Below are positions 989-55,309 of a DNA stretch of 64,000 nucleotides, piece by piece. The notes beneath the pieces were generated by a model. The model did not search any database, was not told the origin of the DNA, and saw only the letters and a program-made list of their open reading frames with translations. Location of the stretch: positions 6,510,001 to 6,574,000 of the forward strand of contig NZ_CP049143.1 in the NCBI RefSeq assembly GCF_011044495.1, read 5' to 3'. Position 1 is the first letter of the stretch. Every line of letters starts with the position of its first letter. The DNA comes from Roseimicrobium sp. ORNL1. Its GTDB lineage: Bacteria > Verrucomicrobiota > Verrucomicrobiia > Verrucomicrobiales > Verrucomicrobiaceae. The position numbers were made by a program, and so were the translations under genes.

Positions 989-3526
989 CTACACCGCCTC
1001 TTTCTTCCGCAGCGGATTCCATCCGGTCCGCGTCTGCCAGGCTTCGAACACGAGCATCGCAACGAGCGCGATGAGCAGCCAGCGTTGCACATCTCTCCAT
1101 GCAGGAGGGCGCGGCGCATTCCACACATCACTCAAGTCCACGCGCTCCGCGCCGCCACTGCGCTGGCTCACAGCGCGCAACTCGGTCAGGCGTGACCGAT
1201 CAAAACTCCACTCGGGGTTCACCACGGAATTGATGGGCCCGAAGGGGAAGGCAGCATCACCGATCTTCACGGCGCCGCGCACGTAGTGCTCGCCTTCGAT
1301 TTCGAGGGTGGCGCGGAAGTGGCCGGGCGCGAGGCGTTCCCAGCTTACGGGATGTGCCACACCACCGGCTCCTTCGGCAAGCACCAGCTCCGGCGCATGC
1401 TGAGCCACGCGGTCATTCCACGTTTCATCAAAGAACAAATCGGCTTTCAAGCGGCTGCCATCCATTCCGGCGCGAAGCCCCACCCCTGGAGGCACCTGCT
1501 CGCCCATGAGCCAGCGCCCAAGGCTCTGGCAGAAGCTGCCATAGTTTTTCCAGGCGCGTGTCTTCTGGGAAAAGTCACCACCCAGCGGACAGCTCACCGC
1601 CGCCACGCGCCCTGCCCCGCGCTGCCAGAAGGCCACCAGGGGAGCGGTGTATTCATCAGACGTCACCGCCGCCTGTGTGGCCCCGGGACGGAGGTAGCTG
1701 AGATTGTAACCGTCCGCCTGCGGCATCCACTCCATGGCTCCCGCGGCCATTTCCATCCAGCCCGGAGTGCCTTTGATGGCCACAGGCTCTTCAACGAACG
1801 CAGACCTCGCCACTGCGACCGTCTCCTGCGCAAAGAGCGCGGGCAGTTCATTGGGATTCGCATTGAAGAAGATGCGGCCGTTGCCACGCTTGGCCACGTC
1901 CTTGAGGAAGTCGGCGTCGGGATCCTTCTCCGTGCCGAGGCCAATCACGCTCACGGTGGCCTTCTCCTTCTGCATCTCTTCGAGGAGCCGTTTGTATTCA
2001 CCAGGCTCCTCAGCGTCCGCGGCGTCCGCGAAGAGAATGACGTGCCGTTGTCCCACCTGCGCCTGCTGCAGCTGCTTCCATGCGGCAACGAGCCCCTGGT
2101 AAACGTAGATGCCGCCACCGGTGCTTTCCACCCGGCGCACCACATTCTGCAGCGTGCCGCGATTCTGGCCCACGGCCATCAAGGGCGCGATCTCGTGCGC
2201 CTCACTATCCACCGCAAAGACGCTGACGAAGTCATTGTCTCCCAGCAGTTCAATGCCGCGCGCAGCGCCTTCGTTCGCCAGATCCATTTTTTGCAAGGAG
2301 GTTCCGGGCACGGTCATCGCCATGCTGCCAGAGCGGTCCATCACGATGGCCAACGCCACGGCGAGCTTCCGATGTTCCTGCTTCATCTCCATACTCACCG
2401 GCAGCAGTGGCTCCACCGGTGAACCAAACCAGCCACCCGATGCGAAGCTGTACTTGCCGCCAATCATGGCCAATCCACCGCCCTGATGATGCACAAAGAA
2501 ATCAAGCGCGCGCACAAACTCCGAGTCCATGCGATAGGCCGGGACATTGTTCAGCACGACAACCTTCGCTCCGGTAAGCGAACCCACCTGCAACTCATTC
2601 AACGCCGTGACCACCTGCACGTCGAATCCCTGGGAACGCAACACGTCAGCGAGCGGGTCCTTCTCATAGGCCGTGGCCAGGATTACGCGCGGGCCGCCCT
2701 GCACTTCCACCCATTGAGCAGCGGTGTTGTTTCCCACGAGTGAATCATCCGTGGGCAGCAACGTGGCCTGGTAACGGAAAGCGCCGGCGCCACTCAGCCG
2801 GTCGGTGAAACGCAATCTGCCCACTCCATTCACCACTTCCACATCGCGCTTGCCGATGCTGGCGCCATTGCGGAACAACTCCAGTGGCACCTTGCCATCC
2901 TGATCCGCGAGCACCACGACCTCCGCGAGAAACGCCTCGCGCAACTGCACCCGGCGGGGCAGGACAAAGGCCGCGATGCGCCAGTCATTCTTGGCCGGCT
3001 GCGCCGCGAGTCGATAGTCCAATGGCACGCCCTGGCTGCCGAGTCTCTCCGTCAGACCATCGAGGGGCTCGGTGCTGTAGCCGTCCGTCAGCACCAGCAG
3101 ACGTGAAGCGCGCTCGTGCCGCATCTGCGCAAGCGCGTGGCCCGCAGCAGAGTTGATGCGCGTGGCTCGTGTATTCCCCGCGAAGTCCGTACTTCCCGCG
3201 CGCAATTGCGCGCCGCGCGTCACCGCCTCATCCGCGAAGTCCACGAAATGCAGGCGATCCGCCGCCTTCTTGGACCGTTCAAGGATGGCCTCCCACTCCT
3301 CCAGCTTGGGCATGAGAAGATCCTTCGCTGAATCCGATCGATCCACCAGCACCCAAAGATCAAGACCATCGCCGTGACGCCGCACCTGGATCTGGCAGAG
3401 CAGCAAAGTCACCAGCAGCAGGCAGACCACCCGCAGTGGCTTCTCCAGACGCAGGCCGCGCCAGTACCATCCCGCAGCGGCGAAGAGCGGGATCAGGAGC
3501 AGCCATTCAGGATGGAGCAGGCGCAT
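989..3526 (-). CDS. Membrane protein with two von Willebrand A domains and a glutamine-amidotransferase-like domain
   Basis: 845 residues. Two N-terminal membrane segments (about 8-22 and 31-46) are followed by a first vWA domain with an intact-looking MIDAS motif DRSDS (62-66). Next comes a class I amidotransferase-like fold (about 279-376, HHQGGGLAMIGG), then a second vWA domain with DRSGS (397-401). A C-terminal membrane helix lies near residues 817-832. Amidotransferase-like domains in such proteins usually lack catalysis and are taken as binding modules. It is the last gene of the operon, 61 bases after a BatA-like vWA gene. The role is inferred: a cell-envelope scaffold whose metal-dependent vWA domains bind partners, probably remodelled by the MoxR ATPase encoded upstream. 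Confidence 0.85.
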   Translation of the reverse strand: MRLLHPEWLLLIPLFAAAGWYWRGLRLEKPLRVVCLLLVTLLLCQIQVRRHGDGLDLWVLVDRSDSAKDLLMPKLEEWEAILERSKKAADRLHFVDFADEAVTRGAQLRAGSTDFAGNTRATRINSAAGHALAQMRHERASRLLVLTDGYSTEPLDGLTERLGSQGVPLDYRLAAQPAKNDWRIAAFVLPRRVQLREAFLAEVVVLADQDGKVPLELFRNGASIGKRDVEVVNGVGRLRFTDRLSGAGAFRYQATLLPTDDSLVGNNTAAQWVEVQGGPRVILATAYEKDPLADVLRSQGFDVQVVTALNELQVGSLTGAKVVVLNNVPAYRMDSEFVRALDFFVHHQGGGLAMIGGKYSFASGGWFGSPVEPLLPVSMEMKQEHRKLAVALAIVMDRSGSMAMTVPGTSLQKMDLANEGAARGIELLGDNDFVSVFAVDSEAHEIAPLMAVGQNRGTLQNVVRRVESTGGGIYVYQGLVAAWKQLQQAQVGQRHVILFADAADAEEPGEYKRLLEEMQKEKATVSVIGLGTEKDPDADFLKDVAKRGNGRIFFNANPNELPALFAQETVAVARSAFVEEPVAIKGTPGWMEMAAGAMEWMPQADGYNLSYLRPGATQAAVTSDEYTAPLVAFWQRGAGRVAAVSCPLGGDFSQKTRAWKNYGSFCQSLGRWLMGEQVPPGVGLRAGMDGSRLKADLFFDETWNDRVAQHAPELVLAEGAGGVAHPVSWERLAPGHFRATLEIEGEHYVRGAVKIGDAAFPFGPINSVVNPEWSFDRSRLTELRAVSQRSGGAERVDLSDVWNAPRPPAWRDVQRWLLIALVAMLVFEAWQTRTGWNPLRKKEAV

Positions 3527-46411: not shown

Positions 46412-48154
46412 ATGCACTGCCATGCCACCCGCAACCGTGCCTTTCCCGCTGCTCTCGCGATTTTTCTCTTCGCCTTGATGGGAAACCCCACCACTTCCCT
46501 CGCGCAACAGACCGGCCGCCGGACCATTCAGCCCAACCAACCAGGCCAGTTCACCCCCACGAGGCCGACCATCGTCATCCCGTCGCGACCGACCATCGTC
46601 ACTCCACAACGGCCCACGGTGGTCCAGCCAGCTCAGCCGGTCATAAGAAACAATCCGCTAGTCGGCAGACCGCTGCCTACGGGCAGGCCTATCACGAGCA
46701 ACCCCATTTCACCCGGAGTCTCCCCCGGACTCCGCCCCCAGCCCGGGCCCACCTTCCCGGTGAAGCCCGTGCCTCCCATCGCCATCCTGCCGCCTGTGGT
46801 GAAGCCCGTGCCGCCCATCGGGAACCTTCCACCGCCGTCGTGGTGGAAGCCCTCCCCACCCTGCTTCCTGCCGCCGCCCTGCCTGCCTCCGCCGTGCCCC
46901 GTCGCCATCGTCATCCCCAGCTTCCCCTCCGCCTTCATCGGTCCGGAGATCGTGAGCATCACCACCTACCCCACGGAAATGGACACCGGGTTCACGAATA
47001 TCCCCGCGCCAGCGCAGGAGCAGATGCAGATGCAGCCCGGGGATCCCGCCGCACTGCAGGGAAATGAAGCCACACCACGCCTCATCGCCATCCTGGGACG
47101 CATCGAGCGCGTGGATACCTCCCTGCCCTCCACCACGTCCTCTCCGTCCTCTCCAGCTGCCGGCACCTCCACCGACCGCGATGGCGACCAGCTCTGCATC
47201 GGCGTGGCCACGCTCACCACGTATTTCAACCCCGACCCTGACCTACCCGCCGAGGCCATGGCCCGCGGCAGCTACTTCGGCAGCCGTTGGGATGGCGACA
47301 CCTGGCACACCTCCGCCACCGGCCTCTGGTCGCGCGGCCCCGTGACCCGGCAACCCCTCTTCACCCTGCACGAGTTGCAGCCCAGCGCCTTCCCCTTCGA
47401 GGTCGCCCTCCCCGGCCGCCGCATCACCTCCCTGCGCATGGCCATCGCCCTCGTCCGGGACACCGCTTCGCCGCCCCTCGCTCCCTCCCCCCAACCTGCC
47501 TCTCGTTCTACCCTTCCCCTCCAGTCCAAGCTCCGCCACCTCACCATGGCCAACAACCTCCGGCGCCACCTCCAGGACTCCAACGAGCCCGTCCCCCTGG
47601 TCCCCCTCATCCCACCACCTTCGTCCTCCTCCTCGTTCTCGTCATCGTCCTCGACTCCCACACCCCCCGAGCTCGATCCCTCCCAAACCTACCTCGGCAA
47701 CGCCAACTCCCCCTTCAGCCAAGCCCTATCCGACTCCCTCCAGGATCTCCTCACCACCTCCTCCCTCCCCCAACCCTCAAGTTCCGTCTCAGGGAACCAA
47801 CCATCAACTATCAACCAAGGACCATCAACCACCCCCGTCTCAGGCTATCAACCATCAACCAAAGACCATCAACTCATCGGCTCCGCCGAGTGGACCCTCC
47901 CCCTCTCCGACCTGCGCGACATCATGAGCGGCTGCCCCCGCTTCACCACCATCCCCCTCCCCGCCGATCTCCAAACCGTCCGCTCCCGCGACACCTCCCC
48001 CGCCCCCCTCTGGGTCCGCCCGTTCCGGATTGAGGTCGGTGCTCAGTCAGAATCTTCTTCAGGCTATCAACCACCGACTCTCAACCATCAACCAACTGCG
48101 ACCTACCAAGGCGAAGTGTGGTTCCTCATCGTGCCGGATTGGGCGCAAAGATAA
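46412..48154 (+). CDS. Proline-rich secreted protein, unknown function
   Basis: 580 residues. The signal peptide is AALAIFLFALMGNPTTSLAQ. Residues 35-170 are Pro/Thr/Arg-rich with loose repeats (RPTIVIPSRPTIVTPQRPTV; KPVPPIAILPPVVKPVPPI). A more globular middle follows (about 175-360), then a low-complexity Pro/Ser segment. The last 120 residues contain several SGYQPSTI/NHQPT-like peptides encoded by a dispersed DNA repeat (ATCAACCATCAACC). No domain is recognised; the C-terminus ends in GEVWFLIVPDWAQR. It is probably periplasmic or surface-associated. It stands between a repeat cluster and the restriction operon. Confidence 0.7.
   Translation: MHCHATRNRAFPAALAIFLFALMGNPTTSLAQQTGRRTIQPNQPGQFTPTRPTIVIPSRPTIVTPQRPTVVQPAQPVIRNNPLVGRPLPTGRPITSNPISPGVSPGLRPQPGPTFPVKPVPPIAILPPVVKPVPPIGNLPPPSWWKPSPPCFLPPPCLPPPCPVAIVIPSFPSAFIGPEIVSITTYPTEMDTGFTNIPAPAQEQMQMQPGDPAALQGNEATPRLIAILGRIERVDTSLPSTTSSPSSPAAGTSTDRDGDQLCIGVATLTTYFNPDPDLPAEAMARGSYFGSRWDGDTWHTSATGLWSRGPVTRQPLFTLHELQPSAFPFEVALPGRRITSLRMAIALVRDTASPPLAPSPQPASRSTLPLQSKLRHLTMANNLRRHLQDSNEPVPLVPLIPPPSSSSSFSSSSSTPTPPELDPSQTYLGNANSPFSQALSDSLQDLLTTSSLPQPSSSVSGNQPSTINQGPSTTPVSGYQPSTKDHQLIGSAEWTLPLSDLRDIMSGCPRFTTIPLPADLQTVRSRDTSPAPLWVRPFRIEVGAQSESSSGYQPPTLNHQPTATYQGEVWFLIVPDWAQR
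47804..48094 (+). repeat. In-frame copies of an ATCAACCATCAACC repeat inside a gene
   Basis: Copies occur at about 47808-47830, 47845-47872 and 48064-48094, with units CTATCAACCATCAACCA and variants. All keep the reading frame of the secreted protein and are translated as GYQPSTINQ-like peptides. Confidence 0.65.
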
Positions 48155-48279
48155 GAGGTTCACAGAAGAGCCAATCTCGGCGCGTTTTCTCCATGCGCAC
48201 GGGTTCGACTTGCCATGGATACAAGCTCTGGATTAAATGCATCCCGAGCGGTCCGACGAGCGCTCGAACTCGTGCCGAC

Positions 48280-50643
48280 ATGGATAAGAAAGCCCTCACA
48301 GAAGCGGACATCCGTACCAAGTTCATCACCCCTGCTCTAGTTGGAGCAGATGGTGGGAAATGGGATGTGATGACGCAAATTCGAGAGGAGACCTATTTCA
48401 CGAAGGGGCGTGTCATCGTGCGCGGCAAGACCGTAAGGCGTGGCGAAGCGAAAAAGGCTGACTACATCCTCTCGTACAAGCCAAACATGCCCATCGCGGT
48501 CATTGAGGCGAAAGATAACAACCACTCGGTGGGAGATGGAATGCAACAGGCACTCGAGTACGCGGAGATTCTCGACGTTCCCTTTGCTTATAGTTCGAAT
48601 GGGGACGCCTTCTTGGAGCACGACCGGACCGTTACAAGTGGGATTGTAACCCGCGAAATCCCTCTCAACGAGTTTCCAACACCTGAAGAACTCTGGGAAC
48701 GCTACAGCACTTCCAAGGGGTACACCGAAACTCAGGAAACCGTCGCCACGCAGAGTTACTACGACGACGGTTCCAGAAGAACGCCTCATTACTACCAGAT
48801 CATCGCCATCAATCGCACGGTCGATGCCATTGCGCGGGGGCAAGACCGCATTTTGCTGGTAATGGCCACGGGTACCGGAAAGACTTACACGGCGTTCCAG
48901 ATCATCTGGCGCCTATGGAAGTCGGGGGCGAAGAAGCGCATCCTGTTTCTTGTCGATCGCAACATCCTTGCCGACCAAACCAAGACCAATGACTTCAAGC
49001 CATTTGGCCAGGCGATGACAAAGATCACCAATCGCACGGTCGACAAAGCCTTTGAAATCTATCTCTGTCTCTACCAGGCAGTGACAGGCACCGAGGAGGA
49101 GCAAAACGTCTACAAGCAGTTCTCGCCTGATTTCTTCGACCTCGTCATTGTGGACGAGTGTCACCGTGGCAGTGCGGCTGATGACGCTGCCTGGAGGAAG
49201 GTGCTGGAGTACTTTTCGTCCGCCACCCAGATAGGGCTCACGGCGACACCCAAGGAAACGGAAGACGTTTCCAACATCAACTACTTTGGGGAACCCCTAT
49301 ATACCTACTCTCTGCGACAGGGAATCTCAGACGGCTTCCTCGCGCCTTACAAAGTAGTTCGTATCGGCATCGACAAGGACCTCGACGGCTGGCGCCCGGA
49401 ACTGGGCCAGTTGGACAAACACGGGAATCTCATCGAAGACCGCGAGTACAATGATCGGGACTTCGACCGCAACCTTATCTTGGAGAAGCGAACGGACCTT
49501 GTGGCCGCGAAGGTCACGGAGTTCCTCAGGGCAACGGATCGCTATGCGAAGACCATTGTCTTCTGTGAGAACATTGACCATGCCGAGCGCATGAGGCAGG
49601 CACTGGTGAATGCCAATCCTGATCTCGCCGCCGCGAACAGCAAGTACATCATGCGCATCACGGGCGACAACGACGAGGGCAAGGCTCAGCTCGACAACTT
49701 CATCGATCCAGAGTCTATCTTTCCTGTCATTGCCACCACATCCCGGCTCATGACGACGGGCGTGGATGCCCAGACCTGCCAGCTCATCGTGCTCGACCGG
49801 CGCATCGGCTCTATGACCGAGTTCAAGCAGATTATTGGGCGCGGCACCCGAATCAACGAGGACTACAACAAGCTCTACTTCACCATCATGGACTTCAAGC
49901 GGGCCACCGCACTCTTTGCGGACCCGGACTTCGACGGCGATCCTGTGCAGATTTATGAACCCGAGGAGGGGCTGCCGCCTGTTCCACCGGATGAGCCACC
50001 AGAAGGTTTCGATGACGATGAAGACGAGGATGTCATCGTGGACCCACCCGGAGGGCTGCCGCCTCCAGGCCCCGGCACCACCAGATACTATGTCAACGAC
50101 GTCGCTGTCTCCGTCGCCATCGAGCGCGTGCAGTACCTCAATGAAGATGGGAGGCTCATCACGGAGTCACTCCGGGATTATTCACGCAAAACAGTCCGCG
50201 AAACCTACACGTCTCTTCAGGAATTCCTCACGGTGTGGAATGATGCTGAAAAGAAGCATGCCATCTACGAGGAGCTTGCCACCAAGGGCGTCTTCCTCGA
50301 CGAACTCGCAGACCACGTGGGCCGTGACTACGATGCCTTTGACCTCATCTGCCACGTTGCCTTCGACCAGCCTCCCCTCACCCGGAAGGAACGCGCCGAG
50401 AAGGTGAAGAAGCGGAACGTATTCGGCAAGTACGGGGAAAAGGCGCGTGCCGTGCTGGACGCCCTCCTGCAGAAGTATGCTGACAGTGGCATCCGCAGTG
50501 TGGAGTCGCTCGACATCCTCAAGGTGGACCCTCTCCCCGCTTTTGGAACACCCGTGGAAATCATCAAGCTGTTCGGCGGCAAGCCAGACTACCTTGCCGC
50601 CATTCGTGAGCTGGAGTCCGTGCTCTATGACAAGGCCGCCTGA
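48280..50643 (+). CDS. hsdR: Type I restriction enzyme, R subunit (nuclease-helicase)
   Basis: 787 residues from the ATG at 48280 (MDKKALTEADIRTKFITPAL); the open frame upstream has no protein character. The N-terminal PD-(D/E)xK nuclease has ADYILSYK then IAVIEAKDNN. The helicase motifs are VMATGTGKTYTAFQ (I), VDECHRGS (II) and LTATPKETED (III), followed by a second RecA fold with QIIGRGTRI (VI). The EcoEI-type C-terminal domain contacts the methylase. An acidic linker (DDDEDEDVIVD) sits near residue 580. It is the first gene of the R-M operon and is followed by a DUF3800 gene after 2 bases. Confidence 0.93.
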   Translation: MDKKALTEADIRTKFITPALVGADGGKWDVMTQIREETYFTKGRVIVRGKTVRRGEAKKADYILSYKPNMPIAVIEAKDNNHSVGDGMQQALEYAEILDVPFAYSSNGDAFLEHDRTVTSGIVTREIPLNEFPTPEELWERYSTSKGYTETQETVATQSYYDDGSRRTPHYYQIIAINRTVDAIARGQDRILLVMATGTGKTYTAFQIIWRLWKSGAKKRILFLVDRNILADQTKTNDFKPFGQAMTKITNRTVDKAFEIYLCLYQAVTGTEEEQNVYKQFSPDFFDLVIVDECHRGSAADDAAWRKVLEYFSSATQIGLTATPKETEDVSNINYFGEPLYTYSLRQGISDGFLAPYKVVRIGIDKDLDGWRPELGQLDKHGNLIEDREYNDRDFDRNLILEKRTDLVAAKVTEFLRATDRYAKTIVFCENIDHAERMRQALVNANPDLAAANSKYIMRITGDNDEGKAQLDNFIDPESIFPVIATTSRLMTTGVDAQTCQLIVLDRRIGSMTEFKQIIGRGTRINEDYNKLYFTIMDFKRATALFADPDFDGDPVQIYEPEEGLPPVPPDEPPEGFDDDEDEDVIVDPPGGLPPPGPGTTRYYVNDVAVSVAIERVQYLNEDGRLITESLRDYSRKTVRETYTSLQEFLTVWNDAEKKHAIYEELATKGVFLDELADHVGRDYDAFDLICHVAFDQPPLTRKERAEKVKKRNVFGKYGEKARAVLDALLQKYADSGIRSVESLDILKVDPLPAFGTPVEIIKLFGGKPDYLAAIRELESVLYDKAA

Positions 50644-50645
50644 CC

Positions 50646-51395
50646 ATGTCCGCCACACCTCCCTTCAGCGACTATCTGGTCTTCGTGGATGAAAGCGGCG
50701 ACCACAATCTCGTCCAGATTGATCCGCAGTTTCCTGTCTTTGTGTTGTTGTTTGCGGTCCTGCCCAAGGACGAATACGTGGATCGTGTTTGCCCGGACCT
50801 TCAACGGTTCAAGTTTGAGTTCTGGGGCCACGACGAGGTGGTTCTCCACGAGCATGAAATCCGGAAGCCGGTCGGGGACTTTCTTTTCTTGATGCAGAGA
50901 CCTCTGCGCGAGCGCTTTCAGGCCGGACTCACGGCCCAGATGAGAGCCCTGCCCGCCACCATCATCGCGGTGGTGATCGACAAGCCCGCCTTCGCTGCGA
51001 AGCACCACATACCTGTGAGCCCGTACGATTACGCCATGGAGACCGGGCTTGCTCGGGTATTCCGCCATCTGGAAGACATCGGGCAGACTGCCGGCACCAC
51101 GGCGATCATCGTGGAGAAGCGTGGGAGGAGGGAGGATGCCGAGCTCGAGCTGGCCTTCCGCCGCGTCTGTAACGGCGAGAACGCGCTCCACAAGCCGTTG
51201 CCATTTCAGCTTGTCATGGTGCCCAAGGCATCCAACTCTCCCGGCCTCCAAATCACCGATCTCATGGCCCGCCCCGTAGCCCTTCATCATCTGCGACCTG
51301 ACCAGCCCAACCGCGCTTTTGAAATCATCGCGACCAAGCTCCGGCGCAGTCCCGAAGGAAAAGTGGAGGGATGGGGGCTGAATCTGCTCCCCTAA
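50646..51395 (+). CDS. DUF3800 domain protein inside the R-M operon
   Basis: 249 residues. The N-terminal YLVFVDESGDHN and the C-terminal LQITDLMARPVA are the family hallmarks: acidic residues of a likely RNase H-like metal-dependent fold. Function is unproven; members are often found near defence genes. It starts 2 bases after the hsdR stop, so it is co-translated with hsdR. About 110 bases separate it from hsdM. Its insertion between hsdR and hsdM suggests a role in the restriction system. Confidence 0.8.
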   Translation: MSATPPFSDYLVFVDESGDHNLVQIDPQFPVFVLLFAVLPKDEYVDRVCPDLQRFKFEFWGHDEVVLHEHEIRKPVGDFLFLMQRPLRERFQAGLTAQMRALPATIIAVVIDKPAFAAKHHIPVSPYDYAMETGLARVFRHLEDIGQTAGTTAIIVEKRGRREDAELELAFRRVCNGENALHKPLPFQLVMVPKASNSPGLQITDLMARPVALHHLRPDQPNRAFEIIATKLRRSPEGKVEGWGLNLLP

Positions 51396-51507
51396 AAATG
51401 CGAAGGGCCTCCGGGAAATCCCAGAAGCCCAGCGCCGACCGGAAATTTCCAGTCCAACTTGCCAGTATCCTACCACGGGTTCCCTCCCCAGTCAATTCTG
51501 CCCTGCA

Positions 51508-52982
51508 ATGCCCAACGTCTCCAACATCGTCAAAACCATCCAAGACATCATGCGCAAGGACGCCGGACGTACGGCGATGCGCAGCGACTAGAGCAGCTTG
51601 GTTGGATGTTCTTCCTGAAGATCTTTGATGACCGGGAGCAGGAGCTGGAACTGCTCCGCGACAACTACAAATCCCCGCTCCCCAAGCACCTACGCTGGTG
51701 CAATTGGGCTACCGATGAGGAAGGCATCACGGGCGAGGCCTTGCTCGACTTTGTCAACAATACGCTCCTGCCCAAGCTGAAAGCCCTCGCCGGAGGCGGT
51801 GACAAGATTGCCGGTCTCATCCGCATGGTGTTTGAGGATGCGAACAACTACATGAAGAACGGCACGTTGATGCGCCAAGTCATCAACAAGGTGAATGGCA
51901 TCGACTTCAATGCCTCCGAAGACCGCCACATGTTCGGTGACATCTATGAGAAGCTGCTGAGGGACCTCCAGTCCGCGGGCAATGCCGGGGAGTTCTACAC
52001 CCCGCGCGCCGTCACCCAGTTTATTGTGGATCAGGTGAACCCCCGTCTCGGCGAGACGCTCATGGATCCGGCCTGCGGCACGGGCGGGTTCCTCGTCTGT
52101 GCAGTCGAACACCTGCGCAAGCAGGCCAAGACAGAAGCAGATGAGCGCAAGATTCAGGATTGCTTCTCCGGCATTGAGAAGAAGAATCTACCGCACGTCC
52201 TGTGCATGACGAACCTCCTCCTGCATGGCATCGACGTTCCCTCCAACGTCCGTCATGACAACACGCTCGCCCGCCCGCTACGCGATTGGAGCCCAAAGGA
52301 ACGAGTGGACGTCATCGTCACCAACCCTCCATTCGGTGGCATGGAGGAGGACGGCATCGAGGCAAACTATCCTGCGGAGTTCCGCACTCGCGAGACTGCC
52401 GATCTTTTCCTGGTGTTGCTCATGAAGATCCTGAAACCCGGTGGCCGCGCCGGACTCGTGTTGCCCGATGGCACGCTCTTCGGCGAAGGCGTAAAGACTC
52501 GTATCAAGGAAGCCCTCCTCACCGAGTGCAACCTCCACACGATCGTCCGCCTGCCCAACGGTGTCTTCAATCCCTACACCGGCATCCGTACCAATCTCCT
52601 CTTCTTCACCAAGGGCGCGCCGACCAAGGAGATCTGGTACTACGAGCATCCCTATCCACCCGGTGCCAAGAGCTACAACAAGGGCAAACCGATCCGCATT
52701 GAGGAATTCGAGCCTGAAAAAACCTGGTGGGGCGACGAGAGCGACGGCTTCAAGGCACGCGTGGAAAACGAATACGCTTGGCGCGTGCCTATCGAGCAGA
52801 TCAAAGTCGGCAACTTTAACCTAGACCTCAAGAATCCGCACAACTCCGACACCGGCCCCGGCGACGTGGACCACCTGCTGCCGGAATACGAGAGGCTCCT
52901 TACTCAGATTGCTGCGACCCGCGTCAAACTGAAGCAAGAGCTCCATCACGCCCTAACCACCACCGCAGGGACTGCCGAATGA
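51508..52982 (+). CDS. hsdM: Type I R-M methyltransferase (M subunit), reading frame broken near the N-terminus
   Basis: The product is an N6-adenine methylase: SAM motif DPACGTGGFLVCAVEHL, catalytic NPPFGG, and the characteristic LGWMFFLKIFDDREQE opening. The family N-terminus is split between two frames. MPNVSNIVKTIQDIMRKDAG (51508-51567) is in one frame, which hits TAG at 51589. YGDAQRLEQLGWMFF continues in another from about 51570. One missing base near 51568-51572 would restore the frame. It is either a genuine inactivating change or a sequencing error; no slippery sequence is seen. The stop overlaps the hsdS start (ATGA). Confidence 0.88.
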
Positions 52983-55309
52983 CGCTCGAAACCTTCTTCG
53001 AAAAGTTCGAGCTCTTTGCCGACGGACCCGGCGCTGTTGCGAAGATGCGTGAGTTGATTCTCGATTCCGCTGCGCAAGGCCTGCTGACCGCACGCCAAGA
53101 ACGAGATGGAGTAGCCTCTAGTATTGTTGACGGAATAGCAGAAGAACGAGAGCAACTCACAACAAAAAAACTAATTCGAAAGCAGGCAGCATTGGCAGAC
53201 CTCGCGTTAGAGGATCTGCCTTTTGCAGCCCCAAAAACATGGTCGTGGGTCCGGCTTGGAAACTGCGTCCCCTCCTACACTGATGACTTCATTGACGGAC
53301 CGTTTGGTTCGAACCTCAAAGCCGAGGAATATACGGAGTCCGGCGTGCCGATTGTTAGGTTAAAGAACATCGGTCGAAATGAGTTTAAATTAAAGGATAT
53401 TAAGTTCGTTTCGCACGAGAAGGCAGAACAACTGAGGCGTCACAGTTTTCAACCAGGCGACCTGCTCTTGAACAAGCTTGGGGAACCTGTCGGGAAGTGC
53501 TGCATTGCTCCAAAAGAATTGGGGCAGGGAATTATTGTGGCAGACGTGGTTCGCCTTCGACTTCCCGAGTCCAAATTCGACACCCGATATGTTTCACTCG
53601 TCATAAACGCTCCTATCATTGGGAGACAGTTCCTTGAAGAGATCACTGGCATAACGCGTGATCGCGTAAATCTCGCGAAGGTTCGAAATCTACCCATCCC
53701 CCTTCCGCCTCTCGCCGAGCAGAAGCGGATTGTAGCGAAGGTGAATGAGTTGATGGCGTTGTGTGACCGGCTGGAGGCGCAGCAGCAGGAACGGGAGACG
53801 TGGCACGTCGCGCTGGCCCGGGCCTCGCTGGCTCGCTTCACCGAAGCACCCACACCGGCCAACCTCAGTTTCCTCTTCCACCAGTCCTACGCCATCTCCC
53901 CTGCCAACCTTCGCAAATCCATCCTCACCCTCGCCGTCCAGGGGAAACTTGTGCCTCAAGATCCGAATGACGAGCCTGCGGAAATCTTCTTGGATCGTAT
54001 CGCGAACTCACTCGATGTTTCTCGGAGCGAGTCCGATGAAACCAATGCCACCACGCCATTCGAGCTGCCCCCATGCTGGGCATGGTCGCGTTTTCGAGAG
54101 CTTGGGGAATTCGGTCGAGGGAAATCGAAGCATCGTCCGCGGAATGACCCAGCGCTTTTTTCAAGAGGCAACCACCCGCTCGTTCAGACTGGTGATGTTG
54201 CTAGAGCAAACGGCACAATCGAATCCTATACTGGGCTCTACAACGACGTTGGTTTGGCACAGAGCAAGAAATGGCCAGCAGGAACACTGTGCATTACAAT
54301 CGCGGCAAATATTGCCGACTCTGGAATTCTCGGATTCGACGCATGTTTCCCGGATAGCGTCGTTGGATTCATCCCAGCGGAGCCCCTTCCATCAGTCCGG
54401 TACTTCGAGTATTTCATGCGAACGGCTAAGGAACGACTCGAGGAGTTCGCTCCATCAACGGCGCAAAAGAACATCAACCTTGGAATTCTGGAACAGGTTT
54501 GGATTCCCATCCCACCCCTCGCCGAACAACGCCGAATCGTGGCAAAGGTGGACGAATTGATGGCCTTGGTAGACGCGCTGGAAACCCAGCTCGCCACCGC
54601 TCGTGAAACCGCCTCAAAACTGCTCGAAGCCCTGGTCGCGGAGTTAACAACGACGAAACCGCAGACGACATCAAAGCCCTCCAACGTAATCGAACTTCAT
54701 GCAACGCCCGAATTTCAGCGGGCCGTGCTTGCCGCGGAGATTGTGGGTCGCATGCACCATCACAAGACGTTCGGACAAACCAAACTGCAGAAGGTCATCT
54801 ATCTTGCAGAGTACATTGCGGAGTTGCGCGAAATCGACAGCCGTCCCCGACGCTTTGCCAGAGGTCCGCACGATCCGGAGCTGATTGCGCAGGTCGAAGA
54901 GAAGATGAAGTGCTGTAACTGGTTTGAGGAGAAGTTTGCGGATGGCAGGCACTCTTACCAGCCTCTCGGCAACCCAGGGGGGCACCGGGAATCTTTTTCC
55001 AAGCTGTGGCAGGACAAGGCCGGGATCATTCACGCCTTGATGGATGAAATGATGGAGTGGAAGACTGAGCGGTGTGAGCGCTTTGCTACTGTCTATGCCG
55101 CGTGGAATGATCTCATCATCTGGGGGCAACCCGTCACGGAGGATGCCATTTTCCGGGAGGTCCTGGAACGCTGGCATCCTGACAAGCTGAAGACCACGCA
55201 AGAGCAGTGGGAGGAGACTCTCTTGTGGATGCGTGAGCGCGGATATGTTCCGAAGGGATTTGGGAGGGCGACTGCGGAGGCTCCTTCAAGTGAGCTGTCG
55301 TTGGATTGA
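52979..55309 (+). CDS. hsdS: Type I R-M specificity subunit with extra C-terminal Panacea-like domain
   Basis: 776 residues, far above the usual 400-600. Two target-recognition domains are followed by matching conserved segments: LPPLAEQKRIVAKVNELMAL (near 240) and IPPLAEQRRIVAKVDELMAL (near 515), each leading into a coiled coil that binds HsdM. From about residue 575 a further 200 residues contain KTFGQTKLQKVIYLAEYIAE and RRFARGPHDPELIAQVEEK, resembling the Panacea (SocA/DUF4065) domain, whose members act as antitoxins or ClpXP adaptors. Translation is coupled to hsdM. The recognition-domain DNA is AT-richer than the conserved parts. Confidence 0.85.
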   Translation: MTLETFFEKFELFADGPGAVAKMRELILDSAAQGLLTARQERDGVASSIVDGIAEEREQLTTKKLIRKQAALADLALEDLPFAAPKTWSWVRLGNCVPSYTDDFIDGPFGSNLKAEEYTESGVPIVRLKNIGRNEFKLKDIKFVSHEKAEQLRRHSFQPGDLLLNKLGEPVGKCCIAPKELGQGIIVADVVRLRLPESKFDTRYVSLVINAPIIGRQFLEEITGITRDRVNLAKVRNLPIPLPPLAEQKRIVAKVNELMALCDRLEAQQQERETWHVALARASLARFTEAPTPANLSFLFHQSYAISPANLRKSILTLAVQGKLVPQDPNDEPAEIFLDRIANSLDVSRSESDETNATTPFELPPCWAWSRFRELGEFGRGKSKHRPRNDPALFSRGNHPLVQTGDVARANGTIESYTGLYNDVGLAQSKKWPAGTLCITIAANIADSGILGFDACFPDSVVGFIPAEPLPSVRYFEYFMRTAKERLEEFAPSTAQKNINLGILEQVWIPIPPLAEQRRIVAKVDELMALVDALETQLATARETASKLLEALVAELTTTKPQTTSKPSNVIELHATPEFQRAVLAAEIVGRMHHHKTFGQTKLQKVIYLAEYIAELREIDSRPRRFARGPHDPELIAQVEEKMKCCNWFEEKFADGRHSYQPLGNPGGHRESFSKLWQDKAGIIHALMDEMMEWKTERCERFATVYAAWNDLIIWGQPVTEDAIFREVLERWHPDKLKTTQEQWEETLLWMRERGYVPKGFGRATAEAPSSELSLD

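Follow-up and report, generated by a model that had tools for sequence, protein, structure and literature searches.

As a rule, restriction enzymes are regarded as one kind of defence and toxin-antitoxin systems as another, the two having islands in common. According to an excerpt of PMC12255303, DarTG2 sits between hsdS and hsdR in the RRDM island of enteropathogenic Escherichia coli (RptR, type I restriction-modification (R-M), DarTG2 and M48), and a partial text of PMC11481870 describes the C-terminal domain (CTD) of the antitoxin DarG as blocking DarT by mimicry of single-stranded DNA at the DNA site of DarT. The present report concerns a stretch of 64,000 nucleotides from Roseimicrobium sp. 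ORNL1 (contig NZ_CP049143.1, positions 6,510,001 to 6,574,000; hereafter the window), in which a type I specificity subunit (HsdS) carries an extra domain of about 200 residues at its C-terminal end. This domain is almost certainly a homologue of the DarT-binding CTD of DarG, and it was found on HsdS proteins of several phyla.

The extra domain resembles the CTD of DarG (DarTG; PDB 7yk3 chain B) in its sequence profile, in its fold as a whole and at six of the eight invariant positions, but it is fused to HsdS, the fusion lacks the macrodomain and the window genome holds no match to DarT. The cluster is like a type IB (EcoAI-type) R-M system in that an EcoAI-family HsdR, hsdM and hsdS are encoded together, and unlike it in the domain added to the C-terminus of HsdS and in a DUF3800 gene between hsdR and hsdM. 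In the RRDM island, too, DarG is associated with a type I R-M operon; DarT and DarG are, however, separate genes there, whereas the window has a DarG-type CTD only, covalently joined to HsdS. EcoprrI-PrrC, in which a type I R-M enzyme silences a linked toxin (as given in an excerpt of PMC2610378), is comparable by analogy only. No HsdS-antitoxin or HsdS-DarG fusion was found described among the top-ranked results of a literature search of open-licence PMC papers.

Identity of the extra domain

The initial annotation had read the gene as a complete HsdS followed by an additional domain of about 200 residues, and the fusion proved real: it is a single open reading frame (ORF) with two Methylase_S domains (PF01420, Pfam E 6.9e-24, best stretch residues 372-538) and a confidently modelled tail. 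The PADLOC profile Specificity_I PDLC03195 covers residues 116-559 (E 3.1e-104), hsdM and hsdR adjoin, and the segments LPPLAEQ, IPPLAEQ, KLQKVIYLAEYIAE and RFARGPHDPELIAQVEEK reported earlier are all present in the fused protein. The tail is not a chance addition, since it is modelled confidently by itself and related domains (25-32% identity) occur on other HsdS proteins. An ordinary extension of HsdS in general is ruled out by its occurrence in 2 of 387 Verrucomicrobiota genomes (a lower bound from a single-sequence query, one of the two being the window genome) as against Methylase_S in 97 of 145.

An AlphaFold2 model of the tail (200 residues; eight-member alignment A2 of the domain family) had a mean predicted local distance difference test (pLDDT) score of 89 and a predicted template modelling score of 0.86. 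Its top PDB match was 7yk3_B (Foldseek E 2.9e-3, probability 1.00), with which VIA gave Z 13.9 and a root-mean-square deviation of 4.0 over 168 aligned residues, nearly the whole domain; the next VIA entry reached Z 8.8 and spanned only model residues 1-107, the winged-helix-like half. The chain is DarG by sequence, being matched at E 4.4e-30 by a profile built from the CTDs of DarGs that adjoin DarT in Verrucomicrobiota. The eight DarGs used for comparison are genuine, with a macrodomain in seven and an NCBIfam DarG match in the eighth (L036).

Profile comparison by hhalign gave a probability of 98.6 (E 1.4e-15) for A2 against the eight DarG CTDs, E 5e-16 with ten family members and a probability of 97.7 with the ten HsdS fusions alone. 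Removal of the most DarG-like member (L010) left a probability of 96.1 (E 3.2e-9), and two subsets of the family gave 95.4 and 92.9. Column shuffling, repeated 60 times as a control, gave a best score of 20.9, far below the 102.7 of the real alignment. Of the eight positions that never vary among the DarG CTDs, six (K, G, P, E, T and W) are constant in A2 as well, and the second K of the KLQK motif is invariant both in the domain family and in the aligned DarG CTDs. Pfam and NCBIfam returned no family for the tail alone, neither phmmer nor a profile search found a meaningful match to the domain among PDB sequences, and a BFVD fold search of the model had no match at E 0.001 or better; macrodomain PF01661 was absent from the Pfam matches of the window fusion to E 1. 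Neither Pfam nor NCBIfam, in the releases searched, names the domain in this protein.

The first half of the model resembles MarR/PadR-type winged helices (Z up to 8.8), and nine of ten members counted (L044, L048 and L049 left out) carry a net charge of +6 to +11. A strong acidic DNA mimic was therefore rejected. Both features would suit a nucleic-acid module that binds DNA or single strands and aids target recognition or senses damage, yet the window member is net negative (-5) and the winged-helix matches span about half of the domain, near the stated background level of the tool, so that such a role is considered very unlikely.

The tail had initially been called Panacea-like (SocA, PF13274) on account of a KLxK...GP core. 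The core and the antitoxin type of the domain were upheld; membership of the Pfam family was not, the strong kinship lying with the CTD of DarG. PF13274 had no hit anywhere in the window genome and did not match the window domain among matches to E 1; of eight family members, only one reached E 0.025 (the best value). With two Panacea alignments, the domain family gave probabilities of 2.2 (E 0.022) and 38 (E 3.3e-4, over 36 columns only), and the DarG CTDs gave 82.8 (E 9.3e-6) and 16.4 (E 1.5e-3). Common to Panacea and the domain are the KLxK helix and, at the second of the predicted strands, a GP motif. GP is invariant in all eight aligned members, but the next residue is H, Y, N or F (GPH in the window) and in no member the V of the Panacea GPV; the domain also has a longer C-terminal part with ATV...W, common to it and DarG and outside the Panacea alignments. 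For a phage Panacea model (pLDDT 97) the best VIA chain was again 7yk3_B (Z 7.6, next 3.8), as it was for the tail (each model being compared with PDB chains). The Panacea profile A7 drew on 27 of 80 viral loci kept. Verrucomicrobiota Panaceas, used as a profile query on PDB sequences, gave no meaningful hit. Panacea and the CTD of DarG are probably distant members of one fold group.

This distant kinship is one point for the function initially proposed, in which a SocA-like adaptor would take HsdR to ClpXP for restriction alleviation; another is that type IA and IB R subunits are under ClpXP control (as given in part of PMC3874165), the window HsdR being EcoAI-type. Nothing found here supports the adaptor role: the nearest relative found is the CTD of DarG and not SocA, and in an excerpt of PMC8832971 ClpXP and Lon are not necessary for neutralization by other Panacea antitoxins. 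It is regarded as most improbable.

Distribution of the domain

The domain is rare but recurrent. The carriers found comprise ten HsdS proteins (several phyla, six HsdM lineages) and one HsdM, plus unfused forms; Methylase_S was confirmed in each of the nine HsdS fusions besides that of the window. The tail search of the 387 Verrucomicrobiota genomes yielded one further HsdS fusion (L002), and a plasmid search one relative, an unfused protein of 268 residues from Tunicatimonas. Seven more loci (L004-L010) came from a pattern scan of genome contigs: HsdS fusions in metagenome-assembled genomes (MAGs) of Polarisedimenticolaceae (L005), Phycisphaerales (L007), Acidobacteriales (L008), a gammaproteobacterium (L009) and Gemmataceae (L010), and two loci of other kinds. 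Of these two, L004 of Salegentibacter is unfused, and in the Bacteriovoracaceae locus L006 (2-955) the protein fused to the domain runs off the edge of the locus and, outside the domain, matched no Pfam or NCBIfam family. Profile searches hit 4 of 369 genomes in the class of G392, two of them with HsdS fusions (L044 and L009 itself), and 10 of 297 in the phylum of G391, three with HsdS fusions (L048, L049 and L008 itself). Further hits of these searches were DarGs with macrodomain and CTD (L045 by PADLOC, L046 and L050 by Pfam Macro). The phage records searched with the domain gave no match, and none of 55 pattern matches in viral contigs was a relative.

The domain also sits, unnamed, at the C-terminal ends of the PADLOC profiles Specificity_I PDLC03088 and PDLC03196 and MTase_I PDLC03039, which match it there (PDLC03039 at E 4e-29). 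When 247 genomes were searched with PDLC03039, one of the matches listed reached the profile end, a 718-residue HsdM bearing the domain (L154), whose locus also holds a second HsdM, an HsdS and an HsdR. The matching locus L156 encodes an HsdM 79% identical to that of L154 and without the domain, which is thus a detachable module. Type I loci L154, L155 and L156 each have two different hsdM genes; L155 also encodes an AAA_13 ATPase, of the type known from PrrC/RloC.

The HsdMs of the ten HsdS carriers fall into six lineages of 22-36% mutual identity, two of which have three close members. The domain tree places L002 with L005, L007, L008 and L009 (100/100), whereas the HsdM tree places it with L048 and L010 (100/100); the latter tree also joins L044 and L049 on long branches, possibly falsely. 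Because the two trees disagree, the domain, or the HsdS end bearing it, seems to have moved between R-M backbones.

In two Bacteroidota loci (L003, 7100-8546; L004, 3566-4891) an unfused domain gene follows a sigma-70-like gene (TIGR02937, below cut-off); BLAST shows no mutual similarity between these two sigma-like neighbours. Small proteins with a KLxK-like helix and YGP were seen among weak hits of the domain profile (L052, L053, L055 and L057), one of them with a helix-turn-helix-like start, and are perhaps further members of the same fold group. L052, L053, L055, L056 and L057 were judged by eye; L051 and L054 were left unassigned.

Gene context, partner and origin

In all ten HsdS carriers, hsdM adjoins the domain-bearing hsdS (MTase_I in the window, N6_Mtase in the other nine), as does a whole or partial hsdR; the hsdR frame of L005 ends after 273 residues near the contig end, and the last domain of the L008 hsdR is cut short. 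The gene order is M-S-R in six (L005, L007, L008, L009, L044 and L049), R-S-M in three (L002, L010 and L048) and R-DUF3800-M-S in the window. DarT (PF14487) was found in none of eight domain-bearing genomes searched, namely the window genome and seven others (six with an HsdS fusion and two with other forms, L004 and L006; those of L002, L044, L048 and L049 were outside this genome-by-genome search).

From these data a partner-binding role is tentatively preferred, in which the DarG-type domain, fused in cis to a type I methyltransferase, would hold or gate an enzyme beside the M2S core, the restriction subunit HsdR being the likeliest candidate. A retained partner would have to be other than DarT, since DarT was not found; all HsdS carriers have R, M and S genes, and the domain sits on either S or M, which together speak for a partner located at the methyltransferase core, and HsdR is favoured as the enzyme most in need of restraint. 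The domain would act by direct binding, as in the DarG-type domain family, rather than by proteolysis, and may serve as a brake on the restriction enzyme. That the add-on recurs in unrelated bacteria suggests a brake or guard that is built into a defence enzyme and acts by binding a partner. A recurrent covalent join of R-M and antitoxin would offer a testable route to the restraint of type I self-cutting or, alternatively, to the triggering of a second line of defence when the type I enzyme is attacked.

Several points weigh against this reading. The window sequence alone has no significant match to the DarG profile (probability 4.6); it is too diverged, so the case for homology rests on the family and the fold. 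The net positive charge of most members counted also speaks against it. In the comparison of the domain with Panacea, 2 of 60 column shuffles outscored the real alignment, so that this comparison is not to be leaned on, and the Foldseek list of the phage Panacea model to E 10 did not include DarG. The absence of DarT is no proof because several of the genomes searched are MAGs and possibly incomplete. We infer HsdR binding from homology and gene context, and the HsdR type differs among carriers (EcoEI_R_C in some, T1R_D3 in L044 and L049), for which reason one conserved HsdR surface is not obvious. The window hsdM changes frame near 51568, as seen in the DNA and its translations; this may be a sequencing error, a phase change or a real defect, and if real, the R-M system may be inactive or silent in the window genome.

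Accessory genes with a Pfam name adjoin the hsd genes in seven of the ten HsdS carriers, namely L002 (see below) and the carriers of DUF3800 (window), Fic (L005), YhcG (L008 and L049), Fic and RhuM-Fic (L009) and SLFN_AlbA_2 (L010); no clear gene was seen among the hsd genes of L044 and L048. A constant toxin partner was rejected, as the accessory genes differ among loci. In L002, an HTH_17 gene and a weak PIN_3 gene lie between the fused hsdS and hsdM (2219-3222) in a toxin-antitoxin-like arrangement.

The main rival is that the methyltransferase core acts as antitoxin of a separate toxin or nuclease bound via the domain, a phage that disables or degrades the R-M system then setting the toxin free. 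The homology to an antitoxin domain, the silencing of PrrC by a linked type I R-M enzyme (PMC2610378, in part) and the accessory genes are in its favour. It is nevertheless judged unlikely, given that no accessory family occurs in more than two loci, that two loci show no clear gene between the hsd genes and that DarT was missing from all eight genomes. Accessory genes of such kinds are, moreover, common near type I systems generally. A broader version, rather doubtful, is that type I enzymes repeatedly captured a DarG-type antitoxin domain and that the R-M complex guards a toxin or its own nuclease, releasing it when a phage disables the complex; if true, this would be a built-in fail-safe uniting restriction and abortive infection in one polypeptide. 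The brake on HsdR remains the preferred reading.

As to origin, DarT was located at 12 places in 145 Verrucomicrobiota genomes, eight of which have an adjoining DarG with its CTD (Macro or DarG profile in all eight). Three of these eight DarTG loci lie in or beside type I R-M genes, a lower bound since the DarT loci carry only 1500 bases of flank: hsdS-darT-darG followed by the start of hsdR (L031), darT-darG and the start of hsdR (L034), and hsdS-darT-darG (L038). The hsdR starts of L031 and L034 were recognized by BLAST to the HsdR of L049 (E 2e-11 and 4e-23) and reached no Pfam family. Together with the E. coli island, these loci suggest a route to the fusions, a plausible source being R-M operons in which DarTG separates hsdS from hsdR. 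If an operon of the hsdS-darT-darG-hsdR type lost darT together with the macrodomain of DarG, the arrangement of the six M-S-R fusions would result; the tree is unrooted, and the direction of evolution is that which we infer.

The same route is compatible with a tolerated, functionless relic, left on HsdS after darT and the macrodomain were lost from an embedded DarTG. DarTG in or beside R-M operons, the coming and going of the domain on similar backbones (the 79% identical HsdM) and the frame change in the window hsdM are in line with this, but the conservation of columns and the confidently predicted fold seen across phyla are not, nor is the disagreement of the domain and HsdM trees, by which the domain seems to have been retained after transfer. 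A relic is decidedly unlikely.

The window locus

The features of the locus are summarized in Table 1.

Table 1. Features of the type I R-M locus and of the fused HsdS (window positions)
Feature	Position	Strand	Remarks
hsdR, EcoAI/EcoEI-type (type IB)	48280..50643	+	Open frame from 48118; presumed start codon
DUF3800 gene between hsdR and hsdM	50646..51395	+	PF12686, E 2.8e-11
hsdM	51508..52982	+	About 20 first codons from ATG 51508; remainder (read from 51570) in another frame
Fused hsdS ORF	52979-55309	+	One open frame, 776 residues, ATG start
HsdS part, two specificity domains	52979..54673	+	Residues 1-565; PF01420 twice
Short linker, HsdS to extra domain	54674..54706	+	Boundary from alignment and model
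Extra domain	54707..55306	+	Residues 577-776; almost certain homologue of the DarG CTD; predicted winged-helix-like first half, then helices
KLQK motif	54782..54793	+	Residues 602-605; from alignment
GP	54863..54868	+	Residues 629-630; invariant; common to DarG YGP and Panacea GP motif

The hsdR product scored 1193.6 bits against NF046051 (EcoAI/FtnUII HsdR; cut-off 550) and also matched ResIII and EcoEI_R_C, and the part of hsdM from 51570 matched PADLOC MTase_I PDLC03025 at E 7.4e-222. The DUF3800 product is a candidate partner in the window locus only. The G+C fraction is 0.54-0.59 in the hsd locus (48000-55000), compared with 0.60-0.67 to the left (40-48 kb) and 0.56-0.68 to the right (55-64 kb); a value below the left flank and most of the right flank fits acquisition of the locus.

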